Positions 2,073 through 18,297 of a DNA stretch of 52,229 nucleotides are shown piece after piece (position 1 is the stretch's first letter; each line of letters begins with the position of its first letter). The stretch comes from a virus, in the IMG/VR virus record IMGVR_UViG_3300029787_000064, positions 1 through 52,229 of that record, one strand, 5' to 3'. A program made the translations under genes and the position numbers. The notes under the pieces were generated by a model that was given only the letters and a program-made list of their open reading frames with translations, ran no database searches and was not told the DNA's origin.

Positions 2073-2101
2073 TATATAGTATTGATTGCACAAAAGTGCA
2101 A
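2073..2101 (-). promoter_or_regulatory. Promoter P1 with operator-like spacer
   Basis: Read on the minus strand: TTGCAC, 17 bases, TATATA. The spacer next to the -10 contains GCAATCAATAC (2079-2089), one of ten copies of a pseudo-palindrome found in the same position in other early promoters. It drives the 86-residue gene and the XRE regulator. The 2102-2260 stretch upstream is AT-rich with T-runs and a short inverted repeat (GTGTAA/TTACAC) but no gene. Confidence 0.75.
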
Positions 2102-2260
2102 GATTTTTTTGTGAAAAATTTTTTTGAGGTCGTTTTTCAAACACATGGGGGTCGTTTGAGGTGAACTTGGTGTAAGATTTTTTTACACAAAAAATATAAA
2201 ATTTGGTGGTGACCATGGTATACCCAGCCCGATTTATTCAATAAAAACAATAACTTAGAC

Positions 2261-2293
2261 AAAAAAAATGCCATGCTAGTTTAACATGGCATT
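2261..2293 (-). terminator. Intrinsic terminator after the amidoligase gene
   Basis: On the minus strand AATGCCATG and CATGGCATT form a perfect stem with a 9-base loop, followed by a run of eight T. It lies 20 bases beyond the amidoligase stop. A second inverted repeat (AAGAACAATT at 2305-2314 with AATTGTTCTT at 2322-2331) straddles the stop itself. Confidence 0.85.
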
Positions 2294-2312
2294 TAGTAAG
2301 TTTTAAGAACAA

Positions 2313-3530
2313 TTATCTTGGAATTGTTCTTATTCTCTCATTTAGATCTGCAAGCGTTTGATCATCCAATCCAGCAATTAAAGATATATCACCTCTTGAA
2401 TTTTCATCTTCAATCTTTTCAATGTCACCTGTTTCAACCTCTATATCTTTAGTAATTAAAACCTCGTAACCATTGTCACCATGATCTCTAGAATGACCAT
2501 AATCAACACCAAACTCTTGCTGATTATGAGTAACAACAAAAGACTTATAATGGTCATTGTCTCTGATCTCTGAAATAGTTCTACGAACTGATTGAGCATT
2601 GTTAATATTACAATGTTGCATAATTTCCCTAGTTGATCTTACTTGACCTCTACAAAACGCCCATAATTGACTTTTAACAGTGTTTGAAGATCTTCCAATA
2701 TAACTAGGGCTAGTTAACTGTTGAAGCTCTGTACGAGCTTTAAAACGTGTTTGAACAGTATGATCAATAATATTAGATAAAAACTTAAACCATGTTTTAA
2801 GTTTATTTATATCCAATGTTCCACCATGTGATCTATTCTCAAATGTTTTTTTTCCAAAATAGTGATTAATATTAAGAGCTGTATATTTATATATTGTTCT
2901 AGGTGCGTGAGAGTTTAAAACCTCTTTTAAACTTTCAATAGTTGGATTTGCTCTTAATATATCACTAGGTGATTTAGGAAATCTTGCATAGTAACAATCC
3001 CACCTAGAGCTTGCAATTGTACTCTTATAAAAATCAATCTCACTAGATATTCTATATCCAACATCCTTATAAACCTCTAATGGTAATTGAGTGAATGTAT
3101 TTGTATCTTCATTAAATTCGAACAATTGCTTGAGATTGTTCACATTTTCTAAATAACTATTTGAATGTCTTTTCATTTGAATTGATTTTCTAGTGAACTC
3201 TTCATTAGTTAAATCAGCTCTTATTGGTAATGTAGATAAATGAACATGAGCTGAACAATCTCTGTTTACATATCCACCATTAGAACTTACAAAATTACAA
3301 GCTTCTTTTAAATAGTCCCATGCAAGCTGACAATCTGCCAATACTGGCAAATCCATTTCCCATTGAGCTTGACTACCATCTGCTTTAATCTTTAAACCAT
3401 GAACTGGATTTGAACTTGATCTATTTATTTGATTTAAGACATAATCTGAATTTTGAGAGTTCATAAACTCTGGTTCAAATCCAAATGCAAACCTTGATTG
3501 ATTGCTGATATATTTAAATTTGTTCTTCAT
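2313..3530 (-). CDS. Putative amidoligase (glutamine-synthetase-like fold, phage type)
   Basis: The protein has 405 residues from ATG 3530. I chose this start because GGAAAGGAAA sits 9 bases upstream; the frame is open further up but lacks a ribosome-binding site. The N-terminal part shows the pattern of the putative amidoligase family: FGFEPEF at 16-22, KADGS then WEMD at 49-60, a VNRDCSAHVHL segment at 88-98, and later KYTALNINHYF and FENRSHGGTLD. These acidic and His residues match ATP/metal-binding positions of the glutamine-synthetase-like fold. Family members form peptide or amide bonds, and phage versions have been proposed to modify peptides or cell-wall material. A gamma-glutamylcyclotransferase-like gene lies just upstream, a pairing known for this family. 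It has its own promoter (P2) and terminator. The ribosome-binding site is complementary to the small RNA at 5139-5183. Confidence 0.75.
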   Translation of the reverse strand: MKNKFKYISNQSRFAFGFEPEFMNSQNSDYVLNQINRSSSNPVHGLKIKADGSQAQWEMDLPVLADCQLAWDYLKEACNFVSSNGGYVNRDCSAHVHLSTLPIRADLTNEEFTRKSIQMKRHSNSYLENVNNLKQLFEFNEDTNTFTQLPLEVYKDVGYRISSEIDFYKSTIASSRWDCYYARFPKSPSDILRANPTIESLKEVLNSHAPRTIYKYTALNINHYFGKKTFENRSHGGTLDINKLKTWFKFLSNIIDHTVQTRFKARTELQQLTSPSYIGRSSNTVKSQLWAFCRGQVRSTREIMQHCNINNAQSVRRTISEIRDNDHYKSFVVTHNQQEFGVDYGHSRDHGDNGYEVLITKDIEVETGDIEKIEDENSRGDISLIAGLDDQTLADLNERIRTIPR

Positions 3531-3579
3531 GATGTTTTTCCTTTCCAAATTGATTAACGTCATAAGGATAATATAATTA

Positions 3580-3608
3580 TGTATAGTAATCATTTCAATA
3601 GTAAAAAC
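3580..3608 (-). promoter_or_regulatory. Promoter P2 (amidoligase), weak -35
   Basis: On the minus strand the -10 is TATACA (3580-3585), with the operator-like GAAATGATTAC (3586-3596) directly upstream. The -35 region at the 17-base distance is only GTTTTT. A half-copy of the dispersed motif, CGAACAATT at 3608-3616, touches the -35 on its upstream side, so a protein bound there could help or block polymerase. Confidence 0.55.
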
Positions 3609-3704
3609 GAACAATTTCCAGCTCGAGAAAAAAAGCCAATAAAATCAATAACTTAAAAAAAATTTTTTTTTATTTTTTTTTATTTATAACCCTATAAAAG
3701 CACT

Positions 3705-3811
3705 GGAAGGTTGATGCTTCAGGAGTCAGATGGCTGCGAAGCCCGATCCCCGATCAGCCCGATCTGCTGCCTGCCCGATCCAGTACGAACAATTGTTCGC
3801 TCTCCAGCCAG
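3705..3811. repeat. GC-rich intergenic repeat block with perfect CGAACAATTGTTCG
   Basis: This block lies between the terminator of the cyclotransferase gene and P2. It contains several CCCGATC units, CTGCTGCCTGC, and the perfect 14-bp palindrome at 3786-3799. It is visibly richer in G and C than its AT-rich surroundings. No gene is apparent. Together with P2 and the terminator it accounts for the 329-base gene-free stretch 3531-3859. Confidence 0.7.
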
Positions 3812-3840
3812 AAAAAAACCCAGACCCGTGAGGATCTGGG
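3812..3840 (-). terminator. Intrinsic terminator after the cyclotransferase-like gene
   Basis: On the minus strand CCCAGA pairs with TCTGGG across a 10-base loop and is followed by TTTTTTT. It lies 20 bases past the stop of the gene at 3860-4363. Confidence 0.85.
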
Positions 3841-3859
3841 CTTCCGCCTCAGGAAAGTT

Positions 3860-4363
3860 TTACGCCCACTGCTTCCCACCGATTCTTTGATGGTGAACCA
3901 TTGGCTTTTCGCTTTCACGAAAACTCTCTATGATTGCTTTATCGATGTGGTTATCAATATCTGCATGGTAGAACTTGTCCCATACTCCCTTCAATCCATT
4001 CCTAATGCCTCTGACATAGATTGGACTCGGTGTATGAAAACCTTTGTAGTTCATGACATATACGAATCCAGTTATACTGTCTCCGTGCATTCCTTCGTAA
4101 CCAGTTACCTCAATCTTGTCATACAATGACGGATAACTCTCGAATCGATCCAAGGATCTTTCGCAAGACTCTGTGATCTCCCATATAACACAAGGGACAT
4201 ATTGATCGAATCCTTTGACAGGAACTATGTCTGCTACATTGTTAAACTTTAACCTGTAGCCGTAGATATGACCTCCACCAATAACTTTAGCTTTGGGACA
4301 TCTAATCGCCATAGCATCTTTGTTAGTGTTTGCTCCGTAAGCAAAATAAATCTTTTTCTGCAT
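3860..4363 (-). CDS. Gamma-glutamylcyclotransferase-like (AIG2/GGCT) protein
   Basis: This 167-residue protein carries the family signature: YFAYGAN at 6-12 (the loop that holds the substrate gamma-glutamyl group), a GYRLKFN strand at 35-41, and LDRFESYP with E75 at the place of the catalytic Glu. Enzymes of this fold release 5-oxoproline from gamma-glutamyl amines or peptides. The length is normal for a single-domain member. AAAGGAGAAAG precedes the ATG. It has its own promoter P3 and terminator and lies just upstream of the amidoligase. The pair may make and unmake gamma-glutamyl-type linkages, on the cell wall, a small molecule or a virion component. The substrate is unknown. Confidence 0.8.
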   Translation of the reverse strand: MQKKIYFAYGANTNKDAMAIRCPKAKVIGGGHIYGYRLKFNNVADIVPVKGFDQYVPCVIWEITESCERSLDRFESYPSLYDKIEVTGYEGMHGDSITGFVYVMNYKGFHTPSPIYVRGIRNGLKGVWDKFYHADIDNHIDKAIIESFRESEKPMVHHQRIGGKQWA

Positions 4364-4399
4364 TTCTTTCTCCTTTGGCTGAAATTAATTTATAATATA

Positions 4400-4428
4400 T
4401 ATATAGTATTGATTACTACATATGTCAA
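4400..4428 (-). promoter_or_regulatory. Promoter P3 (cyclotransferase-like gene) with operator-like spacer
   Basis: On the minus strand: TTGACA, 17 bases, TATATA, close to the sigma70 consensus. The operator-like GTAATCAATAC occupies 4406-4416 directly next to the -10. The leader then contains CAGCCAAAGGAGA, a string also found ahead of the genes at 5020 and 6803. Confidence 0.85.
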
Positions 4429-4451
4429 CACCTTTCTGCATTTTTTTTTAC

Positions 4452-4570
4452 AGCAGGAACGCAGCGTACAGCAGGTTTGTAACCACGAAGAATTGTTCGC
4501 ACTCGTCTTCCAGCAGGAAGCTGCTGCAGCGTACCTGCGAGTCGTTGAATACGAACAATTGTTCGGTTAC
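4452..4570. repeat. GC-rich intergenic repeat block with two motif copies
   Basis: This block contains CGAAGAATTGTTCG at 4486-4499 (one change from the palindrome), the perfect CGAACAATTGTTCG at 4552-4565, and repeated CAGCAGG/CTGCTGCAGC strings. It lies between the terminator of the 4619-5020 operon and P3, the same arrangement as the other blocks. Confidence 0.7.
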
Positions 4571-4574
4571 AGGA

Positions 4575-4606
4575 TAAAAAAGAAGCTGGGCTACAAACCC
4601 AGCTTC
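4575..4606 (-). terminator. Intrinsic terminator of the 4619-5020 operon
   Basis: On the minus strand GAAGCTGGG pairs perfectly with CCCAGCTTC across a 7-base loop and is followed by TTTTTT. It sits 12 bases after the stop of the 43-residue gene. Confidence 0.9.
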
Positions 4607-4618
4607 AGCTCCTCCCTT

Positions 4619-4750
4619 CTATTCCTCTTCTTTTTCTTCTGTATCAAACCAAATCGCAACACCATTCTCTAAACCAGTAGTATCATAAGTGTCCCAGTTA
4701 GGTAATTCTTTTACATTCATTAAAAGATTAAATAATTCTTCTTTACTCAT
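4619..4750 (-). CDS. 43-residue acidic protein
   Basis: ATG at 4750 follows a perfect AAGGAGGT ribosome-binding site. The product starts MSKEELFNLLMNVKELPNWD and ends in an acidic tail (EEKEEE). I do not recognise a family. It is the last gene of a three-gene operon under P4. The strong translation signal and the terminator 12 bases downstream make it credible despite its size. Confidence 0.6.
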   Translation of the reverse strand: MSKEELFNLLMNVKELPNWDTYDTTGLENGVAIWFDTEEKEEE

Positions 4751-4761
4751 TTGCTACCTCC

Positions 4762-4851
4762 TTAAAATGGTACGATTATTACGACTGCACAAACCATTAC
4801 CCAGAAGGTAACCATTTGCACGATTGTCAATGCAACTTCCCACTTAGTCAT
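4762..4851 (-). CDS. 29-residue single-span membrane peptide
   Basis: The ATG at 4851 overlaps the stop of the upstream 58-residue gene (ATGACTAA), and GGAGGCGG lies upstream. After MTKWEV the rest is almost wholly hydrophobic (VTFWVMVCAVVIIVPF), one membrane span. Peptides of this kind can tune host membrane proteins or act in lysis timing. The function here is unknown. Confidence 0.55.
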   Translation of the reverse strand: MTKWEVALTIVQMVTFWVMVCAVVIIVPF

Positions 4852-5020
4852 TTACCGCCTCCTCTATTTCATCTTCGTTTTGATTAACTTCTTCCTCTAT
4901 TGTATCAAGGTAGTGATCTACATTTTTGAAGTAAGGAATCTGACCATGTGCATCAAGATCTTCTTTAGTGCCATCACTCCAACGTATAATTATATTGTAA
5001 CCTGTGATTGTTTTTCGCAT
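4844..5020 (-). CDS. 58-residue acidic protein, first gene of the P4 operon
   Basis: ATG at 5020 is preceded by AAAGGAGAAACAA. The product begins MRKTITGYNIIIRWSDGTKED, which reads as a small beta-rich segment, and ends with a Glu/Asp-rich helix (DTIEEEVNQNEDEIEEAVND). No family is recognised. Its stop overlaps the start of the membrane peptide, so the two are probably translated together. Confidence 0.6.
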   Translation of the reverse strand: MRKTITGYNIIIRWSDGTKEDLDAHGQIPYFKNVDHYLDTIEEEVNQNEDEIEEAVND

Positions 5021-5047
5021 TTGTTTCTCCTTTGGCTGTTTATATAT

Positions 5048-5079
5048 TATATAGTAATCATTGCAATATATTAAGTCAA
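5048..5079 (-). promoter_or_regulatory. Promoter P4, operator-like spacer, unusually long spacing
   Basis: On the minus strand the -10 TATATA (5048-5053) adjoins the operator-like GCAATGATTAC (5054-5064). The best -35, TTGACT, is 20 bases away rather than 17, so basal strength may be low. P4 lies back to back with the plus-strand promoter P5; about 24 T-rich bases separate the two -35 elements. Confidence 0.65.
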
Positions 5080-5103
5080 CAACTTTTTTTTATTTTTTTT
5101 CTA

Positions 5104-5132
5104 TTGACATAGTTTGCAATCAATACTATATA
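5104..5132 (+). promoter_or_regulatory. Promoter P5, plus strand, drives the small RNA
   Basis: TTGACA, 17 bases, TATATA on the plus strand, with the operator-like GCAATCAATAC at 5116-5126 directly ahead of the -10. It is the only clear plus-strand member of the ten-promoter set. The expected start near 5139 coincides with the foot of the terminator hairpin. Confidence 0.8.
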
Positions 5133-5138
5133 TATAGA

Positions 5139-5183
5139 AGAGTCGAGATTTTCCTTTCCAAATATTTCTCGGCTCTTTTTTTT
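5139..5183 (+). ncRNA. Candidate ~45-nt regulatory RNA: hairpin with anti-Shine-Dalgarno loop
   Basis: Directly after P5, GAGTCGAGA (5140-5148) pairs with TCTCGGCTC (5167-5175, one G-U pair) and is followed by eight T, a full intrinsic terminator. The whole transcript would be essentially this hairpin. Bases 5149-5163 of the 18-base loop (TTTTCCTTTCCAAAT) are identical to plus-strand 3536-3550. The loop RNA is therefore perfectly complementary over 15 nt to the amidoligase mRNA across its ribosome-binding site. Shorter complementarity exists to the start regions of the XRE gene (9 nt) and the gene at 5403-5843 (8 nt). No protein can be encoded. Base-pairing control is inference; the alternative is a transcription blocker between divergent units. 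Confidence 0.6.
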
Positions 5184-5338
5184 GCCTCCAGGCACAACTC
5201 CGAACAATTTCAAAGCAGGACCATATGCTACCAGGCATAACCTGCGTCCAGCCGTGAGTACGAACAATTGTGCGTATTCCTTCCCAGGCAAAAATCTCCC
5301 AGGAAAAAAATTTATTAAACCTAAACCTAATAAAGCAC
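5184..5338. repeat. GC-rich intergenic repeat block with two motif copies
   Basis: This block contains CGAACAATTT at 5211-5220 and CGAACAATTGTGCG at 5261-5274, with CCAGGC and CAGCC strings around them. It lies between the terminator of the 5403-5843 gene and the small RNA. Short frames cross it on both strands but have no ribosome-binding sites. Confidence 0.6.
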
Positions 5339-5391
5339 AAAAAAAATCGGAGCCAGCCGAAGCTGACCCCGATTAACCCCGATCCCCGATT
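5339..5391 (-). terminator. Intrinsic terminator after the gene at 5403-5843
   Basis: On the minus strand AATCGG at the 5' side pairs with CCGATT, followed by a run of eight T. An inner stem CAGC-TTCG-GCTG forms a stable UUCG tetraloop. It begins 12 bases after the stop. Confidence 0.75.
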
Positions 5392-5402
5392 CGGGGAAAG
5401 TT

Positions 5403-5843
5403 TTACCCCCTTTCTTTCCACAAAGTTAATGTTCCGTCTGTTGATTCTTCCTTACCGAAGTAAACAACTCCTCTCCAGTCTGGAGAAATTTCTTTGCCGC
5501 CATACCAGTCAGTAACTTTGAAAAGTTTGTTCTCTTTCGGATTGTACTCAACTTGGTCGTGATCTCCACACAATGTCCAAGAACTTCTCCACTTGCCTTT
5601 GACAAAAGCGTGAACATATTTCTTGTTTTCTGCTACCACTTTTTGTCTGGTCTTTTCATGGACAATAAATTGTGCATCATCCAATCTAGCCATATCGATG
5701 TACCCAACTGTGATCCATCTTTTTTTGCCTTCACAGTTTGGAATATTCATCTGGATACTATTTGTATAGCTTCTCAAGTTTCTGAACATTCTAACTTCTG
5801 TTCCGTCTGCTATACTTGTTTTTTCTAAGTAGTCTTTTTTCAT
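5403..5843 (-). CDS. 146-residue protein of unknown function
   Basis: I place the start at ATG 5843 because GGAAAGGAT lies just upstream; the longer open frame continues into the GC-rich repeat block and is not credible. The product is soluble, Trp- and Lys-rich, with MDYLEK-like charged N-terminus, GKKRWITVGYIDMARLDDAQF in the middle and FKVTDWYGGKEISPDWRGVVYFG near the end. No family is recognised. It is a one-gene unit with promoter P6 and its own terminator, the pattern of a phage accessory gene. Confidence 0.65.
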   Translation of the reverse strand: MKKDYLEKTSIADGTEVRMFRNLRSYTNSIQMNIPNCEGKKRWITVGYIDMARLDDAQFIVHEKTRQKVVAENKKYVHAFVKGKWRSSWTLCGDHDQVEYNPKENKLFKVTDWYGGKEISPDWRGVVYFGKEESTDGTLTLWKERG

Positions 5844-5876
5844 AACATATCCTTTCCTGTTGTTTGTTATGATTCT

Positions 5877-5905
5877 AATATAGCAATCATTACTACACTT
5901 GTCAA
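5877..5905 (-). promoter_or_regulatory. Promoter P6 with operator-like spacer
   Basis: On the minus strand: TTGACA, 17 bases, TATATT. The operator-like element is GTAATGATTGC on this strand (5883-5893), the opposite orientation to most others, which supports a symmetrical binding site. Confidence 0.85.
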
Positions 5906-5934
5906 CACCTTTTTTAATTTTTTTTATTTTTTTT

Positions 5935-6062
5935 TCGCAGCTAAAAAGTGCCAGTTTTTTTCTCCAGCAGCAGGACCTTCTGGAGTCGAACAATTGTTCG
6001 GACTCCTGAGGCTGCAGGAAGCTGGACCTGTAACCTGCTGGACCCAGATCCAGTACCAGCAC
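5935..6062. repeat. GC-rich dyad-symmetric repeat block with perfect palindrome
   Basis: The perfect CGAACAATTGTTCG at 5987-6000 is flanked by GGAGT on the left and GACTCC on the right, giving an almost complete 25-base palindrome. Outside it, CCAGCAGCAGG (left) and CTGCAGGAAGCTGG (right) extend the dyad. The unit could extrude as a long imperfect hairpin with the motif at its tip. It lies between the terminator at 6063 and promoter P6. Confidence 0.7.
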
Positions 6063-6099
6063 AAAAAAAATCGGGAGCAGGTTAACCCCGTTCCCGATT
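6063..6099 (-). terminator. Intrinsic terminator of the 6121-6803 operon
   Basis: On the minus strand AATCGGGA pairs with TCCCGATT across a 15-base loop and is followed by eight T. A CGAACAATT half-motif (6105-6113) lies between the last stop codon and this hairpin. Confidence 0.85.
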
Positions 6100-6120
6100 C
6101 TTCCCGAACAATTTGCCCGA

Positions 6121-6288
6121 TTATTTTAAATAACTTGTTCCGTTATGAATGTCGCACCCGATTAAATAAATTGATTCTTTGCTAAATCCTCTAATTATAA
6201 GGCTAGTTATTTTCTTTCTGCTTATCGGTGAATTAATAAAACCATAATAAGCAAACATTTTTTGAATATCGTTTATTTTTTTAATCAT
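6121..6288 (-). CDS. 55-residue basic protein
   Basis: Start at ATG 6288 is fixed by GAGGAGG eight bases upstream. The product begins MIKKINDIQKMFAYYGF and is rich in Lys, Ile and Ser. No family is recognised. The start overlaps the stop of the 41-residue gene, so translation is probably coupled. Last gene of the P7 operon. Confidence 0.55.
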   Translation of the reverse strand: MIKKINDIQKMFAYYGFINSPISRKKITSLIIRGFSKESIYLIGCDIHNGTSYLK

Positions 6289-6406
6289 TTTTAACCTCCT
6301 CATATGATAAACAATTCTGTTCAATTAATTCTTGTAGATATTGTATTACATCTTCTTGATCTACTTCTTCTCTTTCAAACTCTAAAATTATTTTTACTTT
6401 TTTCAT
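6281..6406 (-). CDS. 41-residue acidic peptide
   Basis: ATG at 6406 lies two bases after the stop of the upstream gene, with GAGGATAAA in between serving as ribosome-binding site. The product starts MKKVKIILEFEREEVDQED and is strongly acidic afterwards. Such a short strand-helix peptide has no recognisable family. Position between two translated genes with overlaps at both ends supports it. Confidence 0.5.
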   Translation of the reverse strand: MKKVKIILEFEREEVDQEDVIQYLQELIEQNCLSYEEVKND

Positions 6407-6407
6407 T

Positions 6408-6803
6408 TTATCCTCTTTCTGTTTCGTTGAAGGCTACTTCTTCCAAAGCATACCAAGCCAATGCGTTTAATATCTGAGTATCAACCCCGTCATTCATTGT
6501 GGCTTGGTCAGGGTGCCCATGTATTGTGTCGGCTACCTCTGCCTGAGTGGGCTGGATGTCGTACAAACAATTAAAACCTTGCACCATCTCAAAAGCATTA
6601 ACGCCCAAATCGTTGGCTTGCTCTTTTAAATATTTGTAAATATGTTTAATGTTGTCTTTCGTAAATTTAACAGTTTCATTGTGATAAATGAAACCACCAA
6701 AACCCCCAGAAGCTCCACCATTAACCACATCTTTGAAAGTTTGCTGCACATCATCGCAATTTAATTGCTTGATAACTGCTTCTTTTATTTTTTCATAACT
6801 CAT
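6408..6803 (-). CDS. Phage protein of the DUF7222-like family
   Basis: This 131-residue protein contains VNGGASGGFGGFIYHNETV (28-46) and ends with NALAWYALEEVAFNETERG, the two conserved blocks I associate with a family of small soluble phage proteins of unknown function (DUF7222-like, from memory). TAAATCTCC on the plus strand (GGAGATTTA on minus) is the ribosome-binding site for ATG 6803. First gene of the P7 operon. Confidence 0.65.
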   Translation of the reverse strand: MSYEKIKEAVIKQLNCDDVQQTFKDVVNGGASGGFGGFIYHNETVKFTKDNIKHIYKYLKEQANDLGVNAFEMVQGFNCLYDIQPTQAEVADTIHGHPDQATMNDGVDTQILNALAWYALEEVAFNETERG

Positions 6804-6834
6804 TTTAAATCTCCTTTGGCTGAATTATATATAT

Positions 6835-6863
6835 AATATATAGTAATGATTGCATAGTGTCAA
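6835..6863 (-). promoter_or_regulatory. Promoter P7 with operator-like spacer
   Basis: On the minus strand: TTGACA, 17 bases, TATATT (or 15 bases to the overlapping TATATA). The operator-like GCAATCATTAC lies at 6843-6853. The leader carries CAGCCAAAGGAGA as at P3 and P4. Confidence 0.8.
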
Positions 6864-6894
6864 CACTTAAAAACATTTTTTTTATTTTTTTTTT

Positions 6895-7495
6895 TTACAG
6901 CCTGGTGGCGACACCTGCAGCGTAACAACTGCGAACAATTGTGAGTATTCACCAGCACAGCAGCAGGTACACCTGGCGAAGGAGGCTTTGCAGCACCTGC
7001 TGGACCTCCCAGAACGAACAATTGTGAGCGTTCAGGACAGGACGCAGCGAGTCCCGATCCGATTCACCCCGATCCCGCCTGGGCAGCACACCCTGCTGGA
7101 CCTGACTCCGAACAATTGTGCGTGTTCAGCAGCAGGATACGCCTGGACAGCCTCCCGATCCCGATGCCTCCCCTGCTGCCTGACCAGGGCAGGACCCTGA
7201 AGACGAACAATTGTGAATATACAGCCTGCAGCAGGAGGCTAGGACAGCTTCGATCCCCGATGCTTAACCTGCTTCCAGCCCAGGCAGCATTCCTGAGTCC
7301 GAACAATTGTCGGTATTCACCCCGATGCAGGAGGCTGGAGCCCGATCCGATCCCGATAACCTGCACCTGAAAGCGAACAATTCTACGCATTGGCAGCGTA
7401 AAACATCCCGATCTATACTCCCGATCCCAATTCTACTGGAAATTGTTCGGTAACTCCGTGCCCAGATACGCCAAGTGCAGACCCCGATTGACCCA
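6895..7495. repeat. GC-rich array of six ~90-bp degenerate units carrying CGAACAATTGT
   Basis: CGAACAATT occurs at 6932, 7015, 7109, 7204, 7300 and 7374, all in the same orientation, spaced 83, 94, 95, 96 and 74 bases, with a reversed AATTGTTCG at 7441. Between copies, CAGCAGG/CCTGCTG and CCCGATC strings recur. Several units are dyad-symmetric: CCTGCTG before and CAGCAGG after the 7109 copy, GCAGG-n3-CTG before and CAG-CCTGC after the 7204 copy. I count 72 G/C in bases 7021-7140 (60%), far above neighbouring genes. Frames across the array (for example 7064-7390 minus) only translate the repeat. It lies immediately downstream of the small-terminase-like gene and upstream of P7, and accounts for the gene-free stretch 6864-7498. 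It is not a CRISPR: the identical part is only about 10 bases. Confidence 0.8.
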
Positions 7496-7498
7496 TAT

Positions 7499-8011
7499 TC
7501 AGCTATTTTTGCCTATCTTTTTTGGGTTTATCTGGGTAACTGTGGCTTTTTTCATTCGTTCCTGTGCTTTTCGTTGCAAATTGTCCAGTTCAGCTAGTAT
7601 ATCCTCCTTCGTCATGCTATCTACTTTCTCATGTAGCACATGAGCTTTGTTTATAAGCAGTCCAGAAGCCTTTAAGCGTAGTTCTTCAGCCCGAATAGCT
7701 TCGCTATACCTTTCCCGCTCCAAAGCCTCGTTACGGATCTTTAAAAGATCCCGAAGCGACTTATCAAGCGTTACACCAAACCTTGACCTATTCTCGTCAT
7801 ACATTTCCTGTAATCGCTCCTGTATAACTTCGTTACGAAGTAACCTTACTGCATCGACTGAAGGGTTACTATAACCAGCTTGTCGTGCTGACGCAGTTTG
7901 CGTCATATCTCTATGAACGAAGTTATCAAGAAAATCCTGTTGACGTTGCGTCAATCTTTTCAGTCCTTTTGCTCGTTGTTCCTTTGGTAAATTTTCGCCT
8001 ACTCTTGGCAT
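7499..8011 (-). CDS. terS: Terminase small subunit-like DNA-binding protein
   Basis: In this 170-residue protein, residues 20-60 read KRLTQRQQDFLDNFVHRDMT then TASARQAGYSNPSVDAVRLLRNEVIQ, the N-terminal helix-turn-helix of small terminases (QRQ-x-F-x-x-x-Y/F, then A-x-x-A-G-Y). A long charged helical region (residues 70-150) suits the oligomerisation domain. AAGGAGTAG precedes ATG 8011. Small terminases recognise the packaging site and load the large subunit. Here the gene is about 43 kb from TerL in this linear window rather than next to it, and is flanked by two repeat arrays (6895-7495 and 8060-8265), either of which could be its target. An alternative is a TerS-like regulator. Confidence 0.75.
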   Translation of the reverse strand: MPRVGENLPKEQRAKGLKRLTQRQQDFLDNFVHRDMTQTASARQAGYSNPSVDAVRLLRNEVIQERLQEMYDENRSRFGVTLDKSLRDLLKIRNEALERERYSEAIRAEELRLKASGLLINKAHVLHEKVDSMTKEDILAELDNLQRKAQERMKKATVTQINPKKIGKNS

Positions 8012-8059
8012 AACTTTCTACTCCTTGTCGTTACGTTATTAGGGTTGGGGGAGGTGGGT

Positions 8060-8265
8060 TACTTACCACCCCCCTATACCCCCTATAGGGGGGGAAGTTC
8101 GGTAAGTTGGTAAGTAGCAATAAAATCAATGACTTACAAGCCACAATTAACTTACCATGATAAGCGGGAAGTTCCGTAAGTAAATTAAATTTATTCAACA
8201 AAATCAATACCTTGCAACTTACCGACATTTTTACTTCCCGTGGAAGTTGGTAAGTTGGTAAGTAA
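8060..8265. repeat. Iteron-like cluster of GGTAAGT/ACTTACC with a G-rich hairpin
   Basis: Seven exact copies of GGTAAGT or its complement occur within 203 bases: 8101, 8109, 8249 and 8257 in one orientation, 8061, 8150 and 8217 in the other. Two pairs are in tandem with an 8-base period. A perfect 10-bp inverted repeat, CCCCCCTATA (8069-8078) with TATAGGGGGG (8084-8093), lies at the left end, next to a G-run stretch (8042-8060). Two copies of a further 18-base string (8119-8136, 8197-8213) lie inside. The cluster sits just upstream of the small-terminase-like gene and overlaps the 3' end of the preceding gene. It resembles an origin or packaging-site iteron set; the function is not shown. Confidence 0.65.
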
Positions 8266-8553
8266 ATCGTCATAAATACGAACAATTTTCGCATCTGAAG
8301 TACACCTGTACCAGTTACCTGTTTCGGTTTGTTTATAGTCCAGTGCCCAGAGTGCTTTTATAAAAGCATATTCACAATCAAAACAATGTTCATGCGAACA
8401 ATTCATATAATGTTCGATGTCCAGCTCCAGCTTTTGAGCTAATCCAAACTCAACAAAGCATCCCATACACAGGCTTTTTTCCATGAACGGGAATGCCATA
8501 CCCCGAACAATTCTCTCGTTACAGTTGCAGCAGCTTTTACTTTTGGCTTTCAT
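8191..8553 (-). CDS. Cysteine-rich, probable zinc-binding protein
   Basis: This 120-residue protein has cysteines at C8, C9, C11, C29, C32, C52, C57 and C60 in C-x2-C-like pairs (CCNCN, CMGCF, CFDCEY), suggesting one or two zinc-binding knuckles in the first half. The C-terminal third has no motif, and its DNA contains the GGTAAGT repeats. GGAGGT precedes ATG 8553. No family is recognised; a nucleic-acid-binding role is possible. Confidence 0.6.
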   Translation of the reverse strand: MKAKSKSCCNCNERIVRGMAFPFMEKSLCMGCFVEFGLAQKLELDIEHYMNCSHEHCFDCEYAFIKALWALDYKQTETGNWYRCTSDAKIVRIYDDLLTNLPTSTGSKNVGKLQGIDFVE

Positions 8554-8896: not shown

Positions 8897-8934
8897 AATT
8901 TTACTACCTTTATGTAAATTTTTTCTAACAATGA

Positions 8935-8954: not shown

Positions 8955-8995
8955 CATTATTAATGTGATTAATAAGATTTTTCATGAAAATATTA

Positions 8996-9736: not shown

Positions 9737-9746
9737 CTTTACCTCC

Positions 9747-10016
9747 TTAAACGTCATAAGCATGACGTTGAATAATCAAAGCTCTAGTCTTTGATCTTAT
9801 AATTGATGGTGAATCACAATATGCCTGCCCAGCACCATTGTGATAGCGATTTCTGCTGATACCGATATTCATATCGTAACGATAATCAACCCAATCGATA
9901 AAATCGAAAATCTTATCGTCATCCCATTTTGCAGGAAATATTGCCCAGCAAAAAGCTTCGGCATCCATGCCATCGGATTGTGTTACCTTAAACATTTTTT
10001 CTATAAATTTTATCAT
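9747..10016 (-). CDS. 89-residue protein of unknown function
   Basis: AAAGGAGCAAGTAG precedes ATG 10016. It is rich in aromatic and acidic residues (AIFPAKWDDDKIFDFIDWVDY) and has no recognised motif. It is the first gene after P8 and heads the run of small genes leading down to the small-terminase-like gene. Confidence 0.55.
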   Translation of the reverse strand: MIKFIEKMFKVTQSDGMDAEAFCWAIFPAKWDDDKIFDFIDWVDYRYDMNIGISRNRYHNGAGQAYCDSPSIIRSKTRALIIQRHAYDV

Positions 10017-10044: not shown

Positions 10045-10073
10045 TTATTACATTGTATTGATTGCATAGTCAA
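10045..10073 (-). promoter_or_regulatory. Promoter P8 with operator-like spacer
   Basis: On the minus strand: TTGACT, 17 bases, TAATAA. GCAATCAATAC lies at 10055-10065, shifted four bases from the -10 compared with the other promoters. It probably reads the genes from 10016 down to 7499. Confidence 0.65.
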
Positions 10074-10074: not shown

Positions 10075-10275
10075 TTATTTAATCTCATAATAATAACAAT
10101 GCACCAATTTTTTCTGCACCTTTTCAGCAACTTTTAAACTTTTAACAAAGACATTTTTACTGTCTTCAAACCCCTCTTCTGTCATATCGCTACGGGCTTG
10201 GATGAAGTCTTGCACGGCTTCTCGAAGAACATTCATCTCATTATCGTTAAATTTTTTAAATGCCTTATTTGTCAT
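10075..10275 (-). CDS. 66-residue charged protein
   Basis: GAGGAGC precedes ATG 10275, which overlaps the stop of the upstream gene. Charged and helical (LREAVQDFIQARSDMTEEGF; then SLKVAEKVQKKL). It shares an AxKVAEKxxKK string with the 65-residue neighbour, a possible hint of duplication. No family is recognised. Confidence 0.55.
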   Translation of the reverse strand: MTNKAFKKFNDNEMNVLREAVQDFIQARSDMTEEGFEDSKNVFVKSLKVAEKVQKKLVHCYYYEIK

Positions 10276-10469
10276 TTTTGCTCCTCATATTTTTTAATGA
10301 TTGGTGCATCATAACTTTTTGCCTGCTTCTCAGCGACTTTCATGGCTTTCTTAAATGGAACTTCAAATGCTCGACCAAATGAAACTCCACTGCCATTCTT
10401 TTCCCAGGAGACAAGCTTGACGTTATATTTCTTGCCCTCCCAATGCTTCTCTATTATGACCTCATACAT
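10272..10469 (-). CDS. 65-residue protein of unknown function
   Basis: AGGAGGATAAA precedes ATG 10469. The first half looks beta-stranded (MYEVIIEKHWEGKKYNVKLV), the second helical and basic (KKAMKVAEKQAKSY). First gene under P9, overlapped by its downstream neighbour. Confidence 0.55.
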   Translation of the reverse strand: MYEVIIEKHWEGKKYNVKLVSWEKNGSGVSFGRAFEVPFKKAMKVAEKQAKSYDAPIIKKYEEQK

Positions 10470-10502: not shown

Positions 10503-10530
10503 CATATAGCATTGATTACATATATGTCAA
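10503..10530 (-). promoter_or_regulatory. Promoter P9 with operator-like spacer
   Basis: On the minus strand: TTGACA, 16 bases, TATATG, with GTAATCAATGC at 10509-10519 adjoining the -10. It drives the pair of small genes at 10075-10469. Confidence 0.8.
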
Positions 10531-10664: not shown

Positions 10665-10875
10665 AAATATCACTTAATGTACTTTTGGAAAAAACGTGAG
10701 TCGGTTTTCTTCTAACTCGACCATATTCTTTTTCTTTAGCTGCCCTGGGGTCGTCCTCGAATAATTGTTCGGACTCATTCAACTGATCAGATTTTTCTTT
10801 CATTAATTTTTTTGTAAACGCAATTAGCTCGTTATATCTTTTACTGGTCTTGCTGTATTTGCCCTTCTTAGACAT
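10663..10875 (-). CDS. 70-residue basic protein at the end of the replication operon
   Basis: ATG 10875 overlaps the primase stop by eight bases. Longer in-frame starts (ATG 10899, TTG 10908) are possible. Very Lys-rich at the start (MSKKGKYSKTSKRY), then acidic (NESEQLFEDDPRAAKEKEYG) and basic again. No family is recognised. Codons for EQLF carry a one-mismatch copy of the dispersed motif (10758-10771). Confidence 0.55.
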   Translation of the reverse strand: MSKKGKYSKTSKRYNELIAFTKKLMKEKSDQLNESEQLFEDDPRAAKEKEYGRVRRKPTHVFSKSTLSDI

Positions 10876-13036
10876 TATCCGTTGCTGTGGTTGCCTCATA
10901 TTCTCCAAGAGACATCACGCCATCTGTTGTGCCAAGCCATTTACGACCACCCGATGCTGAGAAAGAGTATTTCCCGACTCGTGATTCCTGAATAAGTTCA
11001 CGAACAATTCCATCAATACTTCGCTGTGTTAAGTTCTGCAGCACTCTCGGTGCATCAGCATCTGAAGCCATTCTTTGACTAATTGCATCTGCTCCCGATT
11101 GTTGTGTCAAGGCTCTTCCCTCCCGCTCACACGTTGCTATCCATGAGAACAAGGCATCTTTTTTAATCTCTCTATTTGTGCCAGAGTGTAGTCGTTTTAT
11201 CTCTTCAGTCTTGTCCTCTAATAATCCAGAATAACTACTTCTGACAAAATGTCTAATATTTCTATTCGCTGGACCATTTGATTTAACGACTGCACCATCA
11301 AAACATCTGTTTCGCTCATACTCTGTTCCGATGTCCATGCAACGTCTACGACCCGTAGCTTCATCGACTTGCCATAGTGCAAACGCACAACGCACACCAT
11401 CAACCAATGCACTTGTTCCTCTAATGAGTAACCTTGCTTGTTCAGGAGTATTAATAATTGTATCATCTTTAATCTTTGTCATGTGGTGACACATCACAAC
11501 TGACGCACCAGTTTCTGTTCCGATCTGTGCCAGTAAACCTGTCAAGGCAGCTCCTGCCGCTGGATCAGCATTTACATCAGCATGAACAAATGAAGCCAAA
11601 GGATCAAAAATAATAAGCTTTAAATCATTCATTTGCAGAATTTGTTCGTAAAGTTTATCAAATTCCTCACTGGTACTGTAGCCATCCCTCGTATCTTGAA
11701 GTATTGGAAACACACCTCCTACGTTAGGAAGTGACACGACTCGCAGCTCATGTCTGTACGAAAATCTTAAATTGTTCGGATCCAGACGCTCAATTCTCCT
11801 GTGCATTTCAGACTCATCATCCTCTGCCGTAAAGATAACAACATTGCCAAACTCCCCAATAGAGCTACCAAAACTCTCGGCTAACGGCTGACCCGAAGCT
11901 ACTTTCATAGCTAAATCCAATGTCATCATACCTTTACCAGCATCTCCCGCTGCAGAAAATATTATTGGCACGCCCAAAGGAAATGTCCCATCAACTAAAA
12001 ACTTTTGTTCGGGTGCAGATCCTTCAAACCGACTGACCAGTAAACTATCATCCAGTAAATTTATGTTACGTCTAGTATGCTTAACTGTTGTGTTTAAGAA
12101 ATGTTGTACATCAAAACTCTCTGATATCGCATCAACGGCATCCCATCCTTCTGGTTTACCTCTTGGTGGCGTTAAGGTTGTTACTGATTTTGCACCAGCA
12201 TTAAGTGCCAGTTCTTGCACCAATTCAGCAACTTTACGTCCAGCGTTATCATTGTCCCCCCAAATAATTAATTCTTTGTCATGTAATGGTGAAAAGTCAA
12301 ATCGACTTGATGACTTACGAGAAAGCATACCCGCTCCTCCCATTGTACACGTTGCCGTATATCCGATTTCATTAAGTGCATCAGCACACTTCTCTCCCTC
12401 AACCCATATAACTTTCTCTGACGCAACAACATTCGGCAGATTATACAAAGGTCTTACATCAGGTATCTTTGGATAAGACGCATCTGTAAATTGTCTAAAT
12501 TCTTTTTTTGGTTTGCCATGACTGTCCATGACTGGATTACCATTTTCATCTCTAATATTGTATCTTCGAACACGACATAAGAGTTCACCATCAACTGACA
12601 AATAAATATGTTCGTGATCAAATGGCGTGTTAATGTCATATGTTTTTTTAAATGTTACGCTTAATTCTTTTGGAATATCAGGTTCTGATGGAGCTGTATC
12701 GTCCAGGTAGTTTCCGAACAATTCTTTGATTTCAGGTAACATCATGTTTCTACCCTCCATTAAAATCTTAACAATACCACCAACACCTTCGGCTCCGTTG
12801 AAGTCTGATCCCTTCATAAAATAAGGTGATCTTGGATTAATATCTATTTTTAAAGATTTGCCTGGCTCTCCACTTAAAGACCCGATTGTAAATACATCTC
12901 CCCTGATTTCTCCATGTGGATAAGTGTCCCGAAGAGCGTTAATTTGCACACTAGCTGGGACTTTCTGACTAATCATATCGACTAATTCATTGGCTGACAT
13001 ATCCCTATTCTTATTGCCAAATTTTATAATGTTCAT
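10868..13036 (-). CDS. Primase-helicase: Toprim domain plus RepA-like hexameric ATPase
   Basis: In this 722-residue protein, residues ~195-300 form a Toprim domain: VIWVEGEKCADAL with E214 and LIIWGDNDNAG with D261/D263 as metal-binding acids. Residues ~345-600 form a RepA/AAA_25-type helicase: Walker A-like SAAGDAGKGMMT (361-372), Walker B LIIFDPL (474-480), then MCHHMT (515-520). The N-terminal ~110 residues have no cysteine zinc finger. The C-terminus looks like a winged helix. Such proteins prime and unwind at phage forks. GTGAGGT precedes the ATG. The gene ends the replication operon. No DNA polymerase is present in the window. Confidence 0.85.
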   Translation of the reverse strand: MNIIKFGNKNRDMSANELVDMISQKVPASVQINALRDTYPHGEIRGDVFTIGSLSGEPGKSLKIDINPRSPYFMKGSDFNGAEGVGGIVKILMEGRNMMLPEIKELFGNYLDDTAPSEPDIPKELSVTFKKTYDINTPFDHEHIYLSVDGELLCRVRRYNIRDENGNPVMDSHGKPKKEFRQFTDASYPKIPDVRPLYNLPNVVASEKVIWVEGEKCADALNEIGYTATCTMGGAGMLSRKSSSRFDFSPLHDKELIIWGDNDNAGRKVAELVQELALNAGAKSVTTLTPPRGKPEGWDAVDAISESFDVQHFLNTTVKHTRRNINLLDDSLLVSRFEGSAPEQKFLVDGTFPLGVPIIFSAAGDAGKGMMTLDLAMKVASGQPLAESFGSSIGEFGNVVIFTAEDDESEMHRRIERLDPNNLRFSYRHELRVVSLPNVGGVFPILQDTRDGYSTSEEFDKLYEQILQMNDLKLIIFDPLASFVHADVNADPAAGAALTGLLAQIGTETGASVVMCHHMTKIKDDTIINTPEQARLLIRGTSALVDGVRCAFALWQVDEATGRRRCMDIGTEYERNRCFDGAVVKSNGPANRNIRHFVRSSYSGLLEDKTEEIKRLHSGTNREIKKDALFSWIATCEREGRALTQQSGADAISQRMASDADAPRVLQNLTQRSIDGIVRELIQESRVGKYSFSASGGRKWLGTTDGVMSLGEYEATTATDNV

Positions 13037-13065
13037 TATACTGACCTCACTTCATTGGCTGAAGT

Positions 13066-13097
13066 ATATGAGGGCGATGCTACCTTCGTCCTCATAT
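13066..13097 (-). promoter_or_regulatory. Hairpin in the primase leader
   Basis: ATATGAGG (13066-13073) and CCTCATAT (13090-13097) form an 8-bp stem with a 16-base loop, about 30 bases upstream of the primase ATG and right after the exonuclease stop. It may control translation or mRNA processing. No T-run follows. Confidence 0.45.
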
Positions 13098-13805: not shown

Positions 13806-13806
13806 A

Positions 13807-14022
13807 CTAGAACGGGATCTCATCATCTGCGATGTCTGTGTTTGGATTAAGGTCGAGAATGCCATCATGTTTACTTTCATTGACTGATTGAATAGCGTCA
13901 ATTATGGCAACTGCATCGTCTGCTGTCAAATGCTGTAATTTTTTATCCCAACCTATTTTAGCAAATTGTTCGGATAATGCTTTTAGTGTATTGTTGTAGT
14001 TCCCTCTACCATGTTCGTCCAT
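13807..14022 (-). CDS. 71-residue protein of unknown function
   Basis: AAGGAGTAAACGA precedes ATG 14022. Mostly helical (NNTLKALSEQFAKIGWDKKL; HLTADDAVAIIDAIQSVNES) with an acidic tail ending DDEIPF, reminiscent of the acidic-hydrophobic tips that bind partner proteins in replication operons (inference). It overlaps the upstream gene by 40 bases. Confidence 0.55.
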   Translation of the reverse strand: MDEHGRGNYNNTLKALSEQFAKIGWDKKLQHLTADDAVAIIDAIQSVNESKHDGILDLNPNTDIADDEIPF

Positions 14023-14276
14023 TCGTTTACTCCTTCTTCTATTACTGTAAAATCAAAATAGTGACTTACACCTAAAAATTCTGCCACTATTGTACCCCCT
14101 AACAACTCATCAGCTTTATCTTTAACAATCTCTTGAATATATGTATCAATGTGATCCAACACATGACCATTATCTTGATCTAAAAATATAGGTACAACTA
14201 TTTTGCCTTTACAAATATAGTGCACATTGTCCTCTGTTTTCATGTTGAGTTGATAATCCACGTTAATTCTTGCCAT
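13983..14276 (-). CDS. 97-residue protein of unknown function
   Basis: Beta-rich start (MARINVDYQLNMKTEDNVHY), then KGKIVVPIF and a helix with KDKADELLGG. No motif is recognised. It overlaps neighbours at both ends in the replication operon. Confidence 0.55.
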   Translation of the reverse strand: MARINVDYQLNMKTEDNVHYICKGKIVVPIFLDQDNGHVLDHIDTYIQEIVKDKADELLGGTIVAEFLGVSHYFDFTVIEEGVNEWTNMVEGTTTIH

Positions 14277-14562
14277 CTTTAGCCTCTATCGCAAGTGCAG
14301 CATATCCAATAATATCTATCATATTGTCATCTACCTTTGGATTTTGACGATTTCTAATTTGTTTTATTCCAATCATAGCTCTGTATACATCATGCACATC
14401 TAATGGCTCTTTTAATTTGTTCTTTAATAAAAGGCTCCATAATTCAGCTATGTCTGTATGTGTTTCAAAAGCATTACCATGTGACTTTGCTCTTGCTCCA
14501 TTAATTAACAAATCTACTTTCTGCAAAGCTTCACTAGCTTTCTGATTAGGTTTATGCTGCAT
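14263..14562 (-). CDS. DUF6378-like phage protein
   Basis: This 99-residue protein contains GARAKSHGNAFETHTDIAEL, then LDVHDVYRAMIGIKQIRN and a C-terminal DNMIDIIGYAALAIEA. This R-x-K-x-HG...W...D...GYAALA pattern is a common small phage family, DUF6378 from memory, of unknown role near nucleotide and replication genes. GAAGGAGATAATA precedes ATG 14562. Confidence 0.7.
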   Translation of the reverse strand: MQHKPNQKASEALQKVDLLINGARAKSHGNAFETHTDIAELWSLLLKNKLKEPLDVHDVYRAMIGIKQIRNRQNPKVDDNMIDIIGYAALAIEAKDGKN

Positions 14563-16234: not shown

Positions 16235-16257
16235 ATTTCCCTCACTGGCTTAATGGT

Positions 16258-16320
16258 GGGTAGTTTTAGGGCATCGCACTACCCAAGCGACTTGCAAGTA
16301 GACTAAGGTCAGTTAGCCCT
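16258..16320 (-). promoter_or_regulatory. Possible pseudoknot in the helicase leader
   Basis: On the minus strand GGGTAGT (16284-16278) pairs with ACTACCC (16264-16258). GCCCT in its loop (16272-16268) can pair with the upstream AGGGC (16320-16316), an interleaved H-type arrangement. It ends about 24 bases before the helicase ATG, next to the ribosome-binding site GTGAGGG. No -35/-10 pair is visible nearby. It could be a translational control element. Confidence 0.4.
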
Positions 16321-16337
16321 TGCTATGCCTATCATCA

Positions 16338-16943
16338 CTACTTTGCCCAATTTGGTACAGCACCACTAGATGGTGGTGTCTGTGTTTGTGATGACGTATT
16401 CGTTGTTGGCACTGTGCCACTTGGAACATATCCTTCCATACCCTGTGTCATGATAACTTTAACTCTATTTTTATCAGCATACATAGGATCATTAGATTTT
16501 TCAATTCCTAGCTTGACACACACACTCATGCCATTTACAGAAGCCACACCACCTTGTGAAGCATCTAATTGTCTAACGGCTTGTGCTTCTGGCGAAGCAT
16601 CATGAGCAGATATATTTTTATGACTCTCTAACACTGCTTTTAACCACTGCAATCCAATCTTTTTAGACTTGGACACACCATTATCGTCTTTAGCATCTCC
16701 ATCAAAAAAATGGTTTTGCCAAAATTTTCTTTTGTCAAATTGACCACCCATGATGGTATATTCGACCTCAAGCCACTTAGCTGATGTGCTTTGTGAAGCT
16801 TTGAATATTGGTGAGTTACTCAACTCTGGTATTGTAACTGCATTAGGTTTAATTGTAATTATTGCTCTCACAATAGTATTTTCTGGTATTAAATCAAAAT
16901 CACCAGATGGTGACATATCACCTACGTTATTTAAATCAATCAC
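16338..16943 (-). CDS. Single-stranded DNA-binding-like protein (Sak4 partner)
   Basis: The start is GTG at 16943, overlapping the Sak4 stop (TCGTGA), with AAGGAGA upstream. The 201-residue protein has an OB-fold-like core (NTIVRAIITIKP; WLEVEYTIMGGQFDKRKFWQNHFF; VCVKLGIEKS) and a flexible Thr/Ser/Pro/Gln-rich tail ending GAVPNWAK. Phage SSB-like proteins commonly sit next to Sak4-type recombinases. Assignment rests on context and secondary structure pattern rather than strong identity. Confidence 0.65.
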   Translation of the reverse strand: MIDLNNVGDMSPSGDFDLIPENTIVRAIITIKPNAVTIPELSNSPIFKASQSTSAKWLEVEYTIMGGQFDKRKFWQNHFFDGDAKDDNGVSKSKKIGLQWLKAVLESHKNISAHDASPEAQAVRQLDASQGGVASVNGMSVCVKLGIEKSNDPMYADKNRVKVIMTQGMEGYVPSGTVPTTNTSSQTQTPPSSGAVPNWAK

Positions 16944-17794
16944 GATAATTCTCCTTTCTTAATTGGTTGTGATTTTACTTTATTTAAATCGGTTACATGA
17001 CTGCCGTTAAGCTTGGCTATTAACTTGCCTAAATGTGGCTCCTCAACAACCTCAAGTTTACCCGATCTATCTTTGGCTGGGTATCCCCACTCATTAAGAG
17101 TTTGACATACAAAAGCTCTATAAGGTTGCACACCATCTGTACCACCCATTACTGTCATTGTAATAACTTCATCAACAATTCCAGGTAGTTCTCGTGCAGT
17201 TTTAGAACCTTCTATTTGTAACTCATAATTAGTTCGACCATAATCATCTAACTTAGCGTCAAGTATGCCAACTAATATGACATTCTTATCTCTAATATGT
17301 TGTAGATGAGTAAGCCAAGCCATCATCTCTCTTCCGTGCATACCATAAGCAGCACGAGTATCGACTTTACCCGATCTTTCAGTAATATTATCGGGATGAG
17401 ACATACAATGCTGAAAGCATAAACGACCTGCAACTGTAATACTATCTACAAAAATAGTATCGTACTTATTCATTTGCACAAGCTTATCTCCAAACTCTTG
17501 CATAACTCTCTCATGATGTAGTTTATCATAAGGCTCCCTTGTTAGGGATGGATTAAGACCACCAATATAACAAACAAAGTCACGACATTCTTGCCATGTC
17601 TTTGGTCTAATTACATCAATAGGAAAATCTTTGATAGCAGTATCACCTGCCTCAAGATCAATAAATAAAGTCTTATCGGGATCAAGAGTACGGGCAAGAG
17701 TTGTCTTGCCCACACCACTTTGACCACAGATGACCATCTTATGACCTCGCTTTTCTGCCATACGTTGTTCGGCAGTTATTATTTCTAAAGCCAA
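16940..17794 (-). CDS. Sak4-like RecA-fold recombination ATPase
   Basis: The start is TTG at 17794, right after GAGGAGG and the upstream stop. In this 284-residue protein, Walker A is GQSGVGKTT (24-32), a LFIDLEAGD strand follows (43-51), and Walker B is TIFVDS (113-118). MHGREMMAWLTHLQHI and NVILVGILD complete the RecA-like core. Proteins of this AAA_24/Sak4 group promote single-strand annealing in phages. The neighbouring SSB-like and exonuclease genes form the usual module. Confidence 0.85.
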   Translation of the reverse strand: MALEIITAEQRMAEKRGHKMVICGQSGVGKTTLARTLDPDKTLFIDLEAGDTAIKDFPIDVIRPKTWQECRDFVCYIGGLNPSLTREPYDKLHHERVMQEFGDKLVQMNKYDTIFVDSITVAGRLCFQHCMSHPDNITERSGKVDTRAAYGMHGREMMAWLTHLQHIRDKNVILVGILDAKLDDYGRTNYELQIEGSKTARELPGIVDEVITMTVMGGTDGVQPYRAFVCQTLNEWGYPAKDRSGKLEVVEEPHLGKLIAKLNGSHVTDLNKVKSQPIKKGELS

Positions 17795-18229
17795 TTAAGC
17801 CTCCTCTGTTTGTACAAGATCAACATTAACTGTGCCTTGCTCGACAGTTCTGGCTGGCTGAAGCTTTGAGACAATAGCTGGAGGAGCATTCGTATACTTC
17901 CTCTCGTCAACAGAGTATGTGACTTTTGCATAGTGTCTTGCATCTTCAGCATCCATGCTATCGAAAGCATCACGCAATGCTTGTTGATCCCATGTTACTT
18001 TTTTGTTAATAGCGACCTTAACCTTCTCATCTTGCTCACTAAATATAGTGGTCGTACCAAAGTCTTTGCCATCTCGTTGTAATTCATCACGAGCCTCGGA
18101 AAAAAACCTTGCTTGCAATAGAGCGTTAAGTTCCTCCATCTTCTTTTTTTGACTATCAATGTCACGCTTCAAGGCAACCTTTGCCTGTAAAAGCTCCTGA
18201 TCATTCATGTCATAGAAATTGTATGCCAT
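17795..18229 (-). CDS. 144-residue protein, first gene of the recombination operon
   Basis: GTGAGGT precedes ATG 18229. A long N-terminal coiled-coil-like helix (QELLQAKVALKRDIDSQKKK then MEELNALLQARF) is followed by a mixed domain with KVTWDQQALRDAFDSM and VTYSVDERKYTN. This layout recurs next to phage Sak4 genes, but I know no function. It is under promoter P10. Confidence 0.6.
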   Translation of the reverse strand: MAYNFYDMNDQELLQAKVALKRDIDSQKKKMEELNALLQARFFSEARDELQRDGKDFGTTTIFSEQDEKVKVAINKKVTWDQQALRDAFDSMDAEDARHYAKVTYSVDERKYTNAPPAIVSKLQPARTVEQGTVNVDLVQTEEA

Positions 18230-18269
18230 ACTAACCTCACTTTCTCATAAATTTCTACTTGCAAGGTTA

Positions 18270-18297
18270 AATATAGACATCATTACATATATGTCAA
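18270..18297 (-). promoter_or_regulatory. Promoter P10 of the replication/recombination operon
   Basis: On the minus strand: TTGACA, 16 bases, TATATT, with a degenerate operator GTAATGATGTC at 18276-18286. It would read the whole block 18229 to 10663. Just upstream (18308-18331) an inverted repeat CTATCAT/ATGATAG covers the stop of the nuclease gene. Confidence 0.75.

Follow-up and report, generated by a model that had tools for sequence, protein, structure and literature searches.

Organization of the locus

The window analysed here is a stretch of 52,229 nucleotides (positions 1 to 52,229) of the IMG/VR virus record IMGVR_UViG_3300029787_000064, which is 53,981 bp long and carries tailed-phage structural genes. 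The window contains ten sites, P1 to P10, that are variants of the pseudo-palindrome GYAATSATTRC, and a gene at 1404–1805 (minus strand) that encodes an XRE-family helix-turn-helix (HTH) regulator of 133 residues. Comparisons among about 200 sequences from related viruses make it highly probable that the ten sites are operators of the XRE protein, from which it would repress the early genes of the phage, including those behind its own promoter.

The promoters carrying the sites are on the minus strand, with the sole exception of the P5 promoter, which is on the plus strand. P1 (GCAATCAATAC, 2079–2089) is found in the TTGCAC-17-TATATA promoter of a small gene and the XRE gene. P2 (GAAATGATTAC, 3586–3596) is located upstream of a gene for a 405-residue amidoligase-like protein (2313–3530, minus strand; PF12224, E 6e-6), and its homologues in relatives match the consensus better (e.g., GTAATCATTAC). 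P3 (GTAATCAATAC, 4406–4416), in a promoter organized as TTGACA-TATGTA-GTAATCAATAC-TATATA, precedes a gamma-glutamyl cyclotransferase-like gene (3860–4363, minus strand; PF06094), and P4 (GCAATGATTAC, 5054–5064) precedes small acidic open reading frames (ORFs). P5 (GCAATCAATAC, 5116–5126) is part of a TTGACA-17-TATATA promoter with the layout TTGACA-TAGTTT-GCAATCAATAC-TATATA, from which a hairpin RNA would be transcribed. The P6 promoter (GTAATGATTGC, 5883–5893; TTGACA-17-TATATT, layout TTGACA-AGTGTA-GTAATGATTGC-TATATT) drives a gene of the Phage_L5_gp82 family (5403–5841, minus strand, start near 5841; PF25735, E 4e-16), a family known from mycobacteriophage L5. P7 (GCAATCATTAC, 6843–6853) lies upstream of a DUF7222 gene (6408–6803), P8 (GCAATCAATAC, 10055–10065) upstream of 9747–10016, and P9 (GTAATCAATGC, 10509–10519; TTGACA-16-TATATG) upstream of 10272–10469. 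P10 (GTAATGATGTC, 18276–18286; TTGACA-16-TATATT) is degenerate yet conserved, and precedes the replication operon, which extends from 17795–18229 down to the primase gene at 10868. The sites thus lie in the promoter of the regulator itself and in those of accessory cassettes, of a small RNA and of the replication operon, in agreement with the single, presumably early, regulon proposed in a preliminary description of the window.

A check of the 52-kb sequence found all ten positions given in that description to be correct. Strict matches to GYAATSATTRC occur at 5054, 5883 and 6843; six sites (2079, 3586, 4406, 5116, 10055 and 10509) have one mismatch and 18276 has two. With up to two mismatches allowed, GYAATSATTRC by itself is no more frequent in the window than expected (51 matches against 55), so the case is built on a stricter form of the motif, on promoter context and on relatives. 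When scored with a motif model derived from viruses of the same recognition-helix class (class A, see below), the training set of which partly included the window itself, all sites other than 18276 are the nine top matches in 52 kb (scores of at least 14.6); the next match, within coding DNA, scores 12.7. The nine sites also score well, interspersed with a few coding matches, when the training set of the model is restricted to other viruses (helix class B). The motif flanked by -35-like and -10-like hexamers occurs 9 times in the window, compared with a mean of 0.30 and a maximum of 1 in shuffled sequences. In class A and class B relatives the motif was counted 578 times and a reversed control 4 times (redundant loci counted); a count over whole records found no copy of the reversed pattern.

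Each of the nine sites is embedded in a sigma70-like promoter, in the spacer beside the -10 hexamer. The sites had been described as nearly always abutting the -10 and as occurring in both orientations, as expected for a dimer-type operator. Both features hold: the -10 begins 0–3 bp past the motif, with a spacer of 17 in 119 of the 132 fitted sites, and the two orientations are seen because either half of the pseudo-palindrome can be degenerate. P10 is backed by its homologues: almost every class-A relative retains GTAATGATGTC or GTAATCATCGC at this promoter. The persistence of a degenerate operator at this position suggests selection for a weaker or later repression of replication.

Relatives and distribution of the motif

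About 300 viral stretches, some of which overlap, were gathered with the primase (which alone yielded 248), the XRE protein or the promoter motif as query. The terminase is ~60% identical to those of the Pelagibacter phages HTVC023P and HTVC027P, of phage 023Pt_psg01 and of DSL-LC04. Protein searches with XRE against cultured phages gave no match. These four cultured terminase relatives and a fifth, CRP-901, feature neither an XRE homologue detectable by protein search nor the motif, and the XRE family profile found only two weak matches (E about 0.005). A scan of 84,980 species genomes, which was also meant to identify the host and reaches close relatives only, revealed no primase relatives. 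Short portions of the primase gene (window ~11550–12030) show ~77% DNA identity to Wolbachia phage WO records, which is odd for a marine virus.

At least 118 viral stretches carry the promoter motif, in many cases as 2–4 copies. In 85,000 species genomes (257 Gb) it was found at 24 scattered single places and in no cluster, while ~6 are expected by chance (a uniform-composition estimate, which AT-rich genomes raise). Abundance in viruses and a near-chance count in genomes indicate that the motif is a phage feature rather than a general promoter preference.

Recognition helices and operators vary together

The XRE family comprises 210 ORFs (redundant loci counted), which fall into four recognition-helix classes and one single variant. 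The window protein has the helix SLRTWCHYE, which defines class A. Motifs were searched for de novo in the promoters of each class, without assuming a consensus. Class A (SLRTWCHYE) is associated with the operator GTAATSATTAC, class B (SHRMWNHYE) with GYAATSATTRC and class D (SHRMYCYYE) with GCAATSATTGC. Class C proteins (SERGYRCYE) are associated with GGCANTSANTGCC; at the promoter position where classes A, B and D share GYAATSATTRC, class C viruses have GGYNNTSANNRCC. The motif log-likelihoods for classes B, A, C and D were 105, 128, 75 and 180, respectively, and the maxima obtained from shuffled columns were 24, 28, 28 and 33. The same palindromes were recovered by an unconstrained motif model.

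Helix and operator do not simply follow viral ancestry. By primase identity, class D is the outgroup (61–63%) to the closely related classes A, B and C (76–77%), but the only helix and operator to stand apart are those of class C; the operator has therefore changed solely in the lineage whose helix changed. One genome, G017, is nearer to G011 of class B (mostly 75–88% nucleotide identity, in long blocks) than to G020 of class C (68–81%). In contrast, its XRE protein is of class C, being 54% identical to that of G020 and about 40% to class B proteins, and its operators are those of class C. The replication promoter is an example: its homologous versions have GTAATGATGTC in the window, GTAACTAGTGC in G011, GGTTTACAGTTCC in G017 and GGATATGTATGCC in G020. 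By these identities G017 is a natural recombinant, in which a class-B-like backbone and ribbon-helix-helix (RHH) gene are combined with a class-C XRE gene, and the confounding of operator type with lineage is thereby broken. The XRE protein at 1404–1805, already the leading candidate in the preliminary description, is the best-supported reader of the operators on this comparative evidence, since operator type tracks the recognition helix over four classes, including the recombinant.

The XRE protein and its operon

The XRE protein, assigned through matches to HTH_19 and phage regulators and through the family alignment, is preceded by a gene (1792–2052, minus strand) that overlaps its start and encodes a small, fast-evolving protein of 86 residues in an acr-like position. 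In every class, homologues lie immediately upstream of XRE. The small protein has no match in Pfam, PHROG or PDB, and a structure search found nothing significant in PDB and, among viral models, weak matches at best. It has a net charge of +3 in the window, and its homologues are strongly acidic in some classes. It is a candidate anti-defence protein or antirepressor. It is unlikely to read the operators, because the window protein is too divergent (16–28% identity) from those of other classes with the same operator.

P1 places the XRE gene behind its own operator, which points to autoregulation. The own-promoter operator is found ahead of the XRE operon in 24/33 class A, 22/24 class B and 17/25 class C loci. 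The predicted XRE structure shows an HTH domain (residues 13–63) followed by long C-terminal helices (moderate confidence, pTM 0.46), which could act as a dimerization element. The nearest solved fold of the HTH domain is Aca10 (Z 9.2, 1.4 Å, 57 residues), and Aca2 and Aca1 are also near the top.

The P5 hairpin RNA and other repeats

The hairpin RNA from P5 (5137–5183, plus strand) is about 46 nt long and is conserved in many class-A relatives. Its loop, TTTTCCTTTCCAAAT, is perfectly complementary over 15 nt to the ribosome-binding site (3536–3550, minus strand) of the P2 gene, which encodes the amidoligase-like protein; this is the only 15-nt match in the window besides the opposite strand of the hairpin itself. 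Shuffled loops find complements of 12 nt at most. In a subclade, the loop TTCCTTTCCATT is paired with the leader AATGGAAAGGAA, loop and target having changed jointly, and duplex energies favour cognate loop/leader pairs. The complementarity suggests that the P5 RNA may add a second, antisense layer of control on the P2 gene inside the regulon.

A different palindrome, CGAACAATTGTTCG, occurs together with half copies mostly at 3119–8504, in the intergenic DNA of the accessory cassettes. The half copy CGAACAATT is found 24 times in the window, 17 of these between 3.1 and 8.6 kb. The CGAACAATTGTTCG repeat closely resembles the Gram-positive LexA box. It also looks similar to the published Aca2 operator, GTTCGCAATTGCGAAC, but the half-sites differ.

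Alternative explanations

The preliminary description had deduced a temperate or pseudolysogenic lifestyle, in which XRE would be a CI-type lysogeny repressor. Coverage of both replication and early genes is what an immunity repressor would provide. However, searches in which positive controls were detected found no tyrosine or serine integrase (PF00589, PF00239) in 13 related records, which may be incomplete. No prophage relative was found in the 84,980 genomes within the close range of the primase scan, against 248 viral stretches. The locus lacks a divergent CI/Cro-type pair, and the promoter driving XRE would be repressed by XRE itself. A lysogeny repressor is hence unlikely, and shut-off of early genes in the lytic cycle is the most likely explanation of the data.

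XRE might instead activate its promoters. MerR-type activators bind the promoter spacer, the very region in which the sites are found. Promoters of that kind have long spacers, whereas the promoters described here have near-consensus hexamers and optimal spacers (17 bp in most fitted sites), and the site touches the -10. Repression by XRE fits these features better, and we regard activation as very improbable.

The preliminary description had named as an alternative regulator the RHH-like protein encoded at 18696–18908 (plus strand). RHH proteins frequently bind short palindromes; this one is found in all operator classes, and its gene adjoins the replication operon. Yet nearly identical RHH proteins are found in G017, with class-C operators, and in G011 and G051, with class-B operators. 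Classes B and C have an identical strand, KFKSIGID, at the predicted DNA contact, whereas the class D protein differs at this strand but retains a class-A-like operator. No operator was found at the start of the RHH gene. This protein is therefore most improbable as the reader of the sites.

A sigma-factor or RNA polymerase preference, the refuting alternative set beforehand, would account for a motif adjoining the -10 of near-consensus promoters, but is just as improbable, as the motif forms no cluster in any of the 85,000 genomes, either half of it can be degenerate, its offset to the -10 varies, and its type switches together with the XRE helix and not with the viral backbone.

Several observations weigh against XRE as the repressor acting at all ten sites. 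P10 ranked only 16th under the class-A motif model. Own promoters of class D have a strict site in only 5 of 42 cases, and examples are degenerate (e.g., GCAATCTTTGC). XRE is always accompanied by its upstream partner gene, and the two may have a joint role. The HTH of XRE is a common fold, and its Foldseek E-values are poor (0.03–0.1). Many relatives are contig fragments, so the absence of a gene from them is unproven, and XRE loci were partly collected through helix-derived search patterns, so that further helix classes may exist.

Discussion

We propose that an XRE dimer probably occupies the 11-bp pseudo-palindrome, which lies within the spacer beside the -10. An occupied operator should keep the host sigma70 RNA polymerase off these strong early promoters. 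With its gene behind P1, XRE would accumulate early and then turn off its own gene along with the rest of the set: about seven exchangeable accessory cassettes, the small antisense-like RNA and, through the weaker conserved site P10, the replication operon.

Aca proteins repress acr operons via inverted repeats within core promoters (PMC9410906; PMC9410881). The XRE operon resembles those of Aca1, Aca2 and Aca10 in that the gene for a small HTH protein immediately follows a small, fast-evolving gene, and the operon's own core promoter contains an inverted repeat, here P1. The size of XRE (133 residues) is within the Aca range of about 60–140 residues. Aca10, Aca2 and Aca1 rank near the top among solved folds for the HTH domain, but this fold is a common one. 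In contrast, known Aca proteins were studied at one acr-aca promoter, whereas about ten dispersed promoters, including that of replication, are involved here. No known Acr was recognized in the system, the XRE partner being a small, fast-evolving protein that matches nothing. None of 16 XRE family members matches DUF1870, the Aca2 family model; they match mainly generic HTH families and MqsA_antitoxin, the window protein falling below the cut-off. The relation would thus be one of working mode and not of Aca family membership, XRE acting as an Aca-type autorepressor whose control has spread from a single acr-aca promoter to an early regulon across the genome. Resemblance to the HTH of MqsA/HigA-type antitoxins and to RstR, below curated cut-offs, extends to the autoregulation of a two-gene operon; here, however, no toxin was recognized in the XRE partner gene and the regulon has multiple promoters.

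In the rudivirus SIRV2, most early genes, including the regulator gene, share a regulatory sequence around the promoter; many are small and have been proposed to act against host defences, and early expression is shut off about 1 h after infection, probably by Aca8 (PMC11065993). Similarly, ten promoters share one element here, the regulator's own (P1) included, if the genes concerned are indeed early. SIRV2 is an archaeal virus with TATA/BRE promoters and a winged-HTH Aca8, whereas the present system, from a tailed bacterial virus, has sigma70-like promoters, an XRE-type HTH, a compact pseudo-palindrome and covariation of helix and operator. It looks like a bacterial-virus counterpart of the SIRV2 arrangement with a compact operator.

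Cluster A mycobacteriophages are temperate, and their stoperators are asymmetric, lie mostly outside promoters and have one orientation. As in their stoperator regulon (PMC6550527), many dispersed sites would be served by a single phage repressor here; the sites differ in being pseudo-palindromic and within promoters, and no integrase was found.

In relatives, genes of at least 79 protein families follow the operator-promoter; 74 of these families are under 150 residues, and some of the ORFs may be chance calls. Among the operator-fronted proteins searched, 9/10 have no Pfam family match. The arrangement behind the operator-promoter is one of swappable cassettes. It is conceivable, if tentative, that throughout a large clade of lytic marine phages an Aca-like repressor came to act as the central switch for shutting genes off. 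The operator-promoter would then be a socket into which anti-defence or takeover genes can be plugged and exchanged, the gene upstream of XRE would itself encode an anti-defence protein, and the loop-paired antisense RNA would form a second layer of control within the regulon.

If the proposal is correct, any gene bearing the operator in these uncultured marine viruses could be flagged as early, and the list of at least 79 small-protein families, mostly without known function, would provide candidates for anti-defence and host takeover. The early regulatory sequence of SIRV2 served likewise for picking candidates (PMC11065993). The four helix/operator classes and the natural recombinant would offer a clean test case for HTH specificity, and a repressor gene in an uncultured phage would not need to imply a temperate lifestyle.

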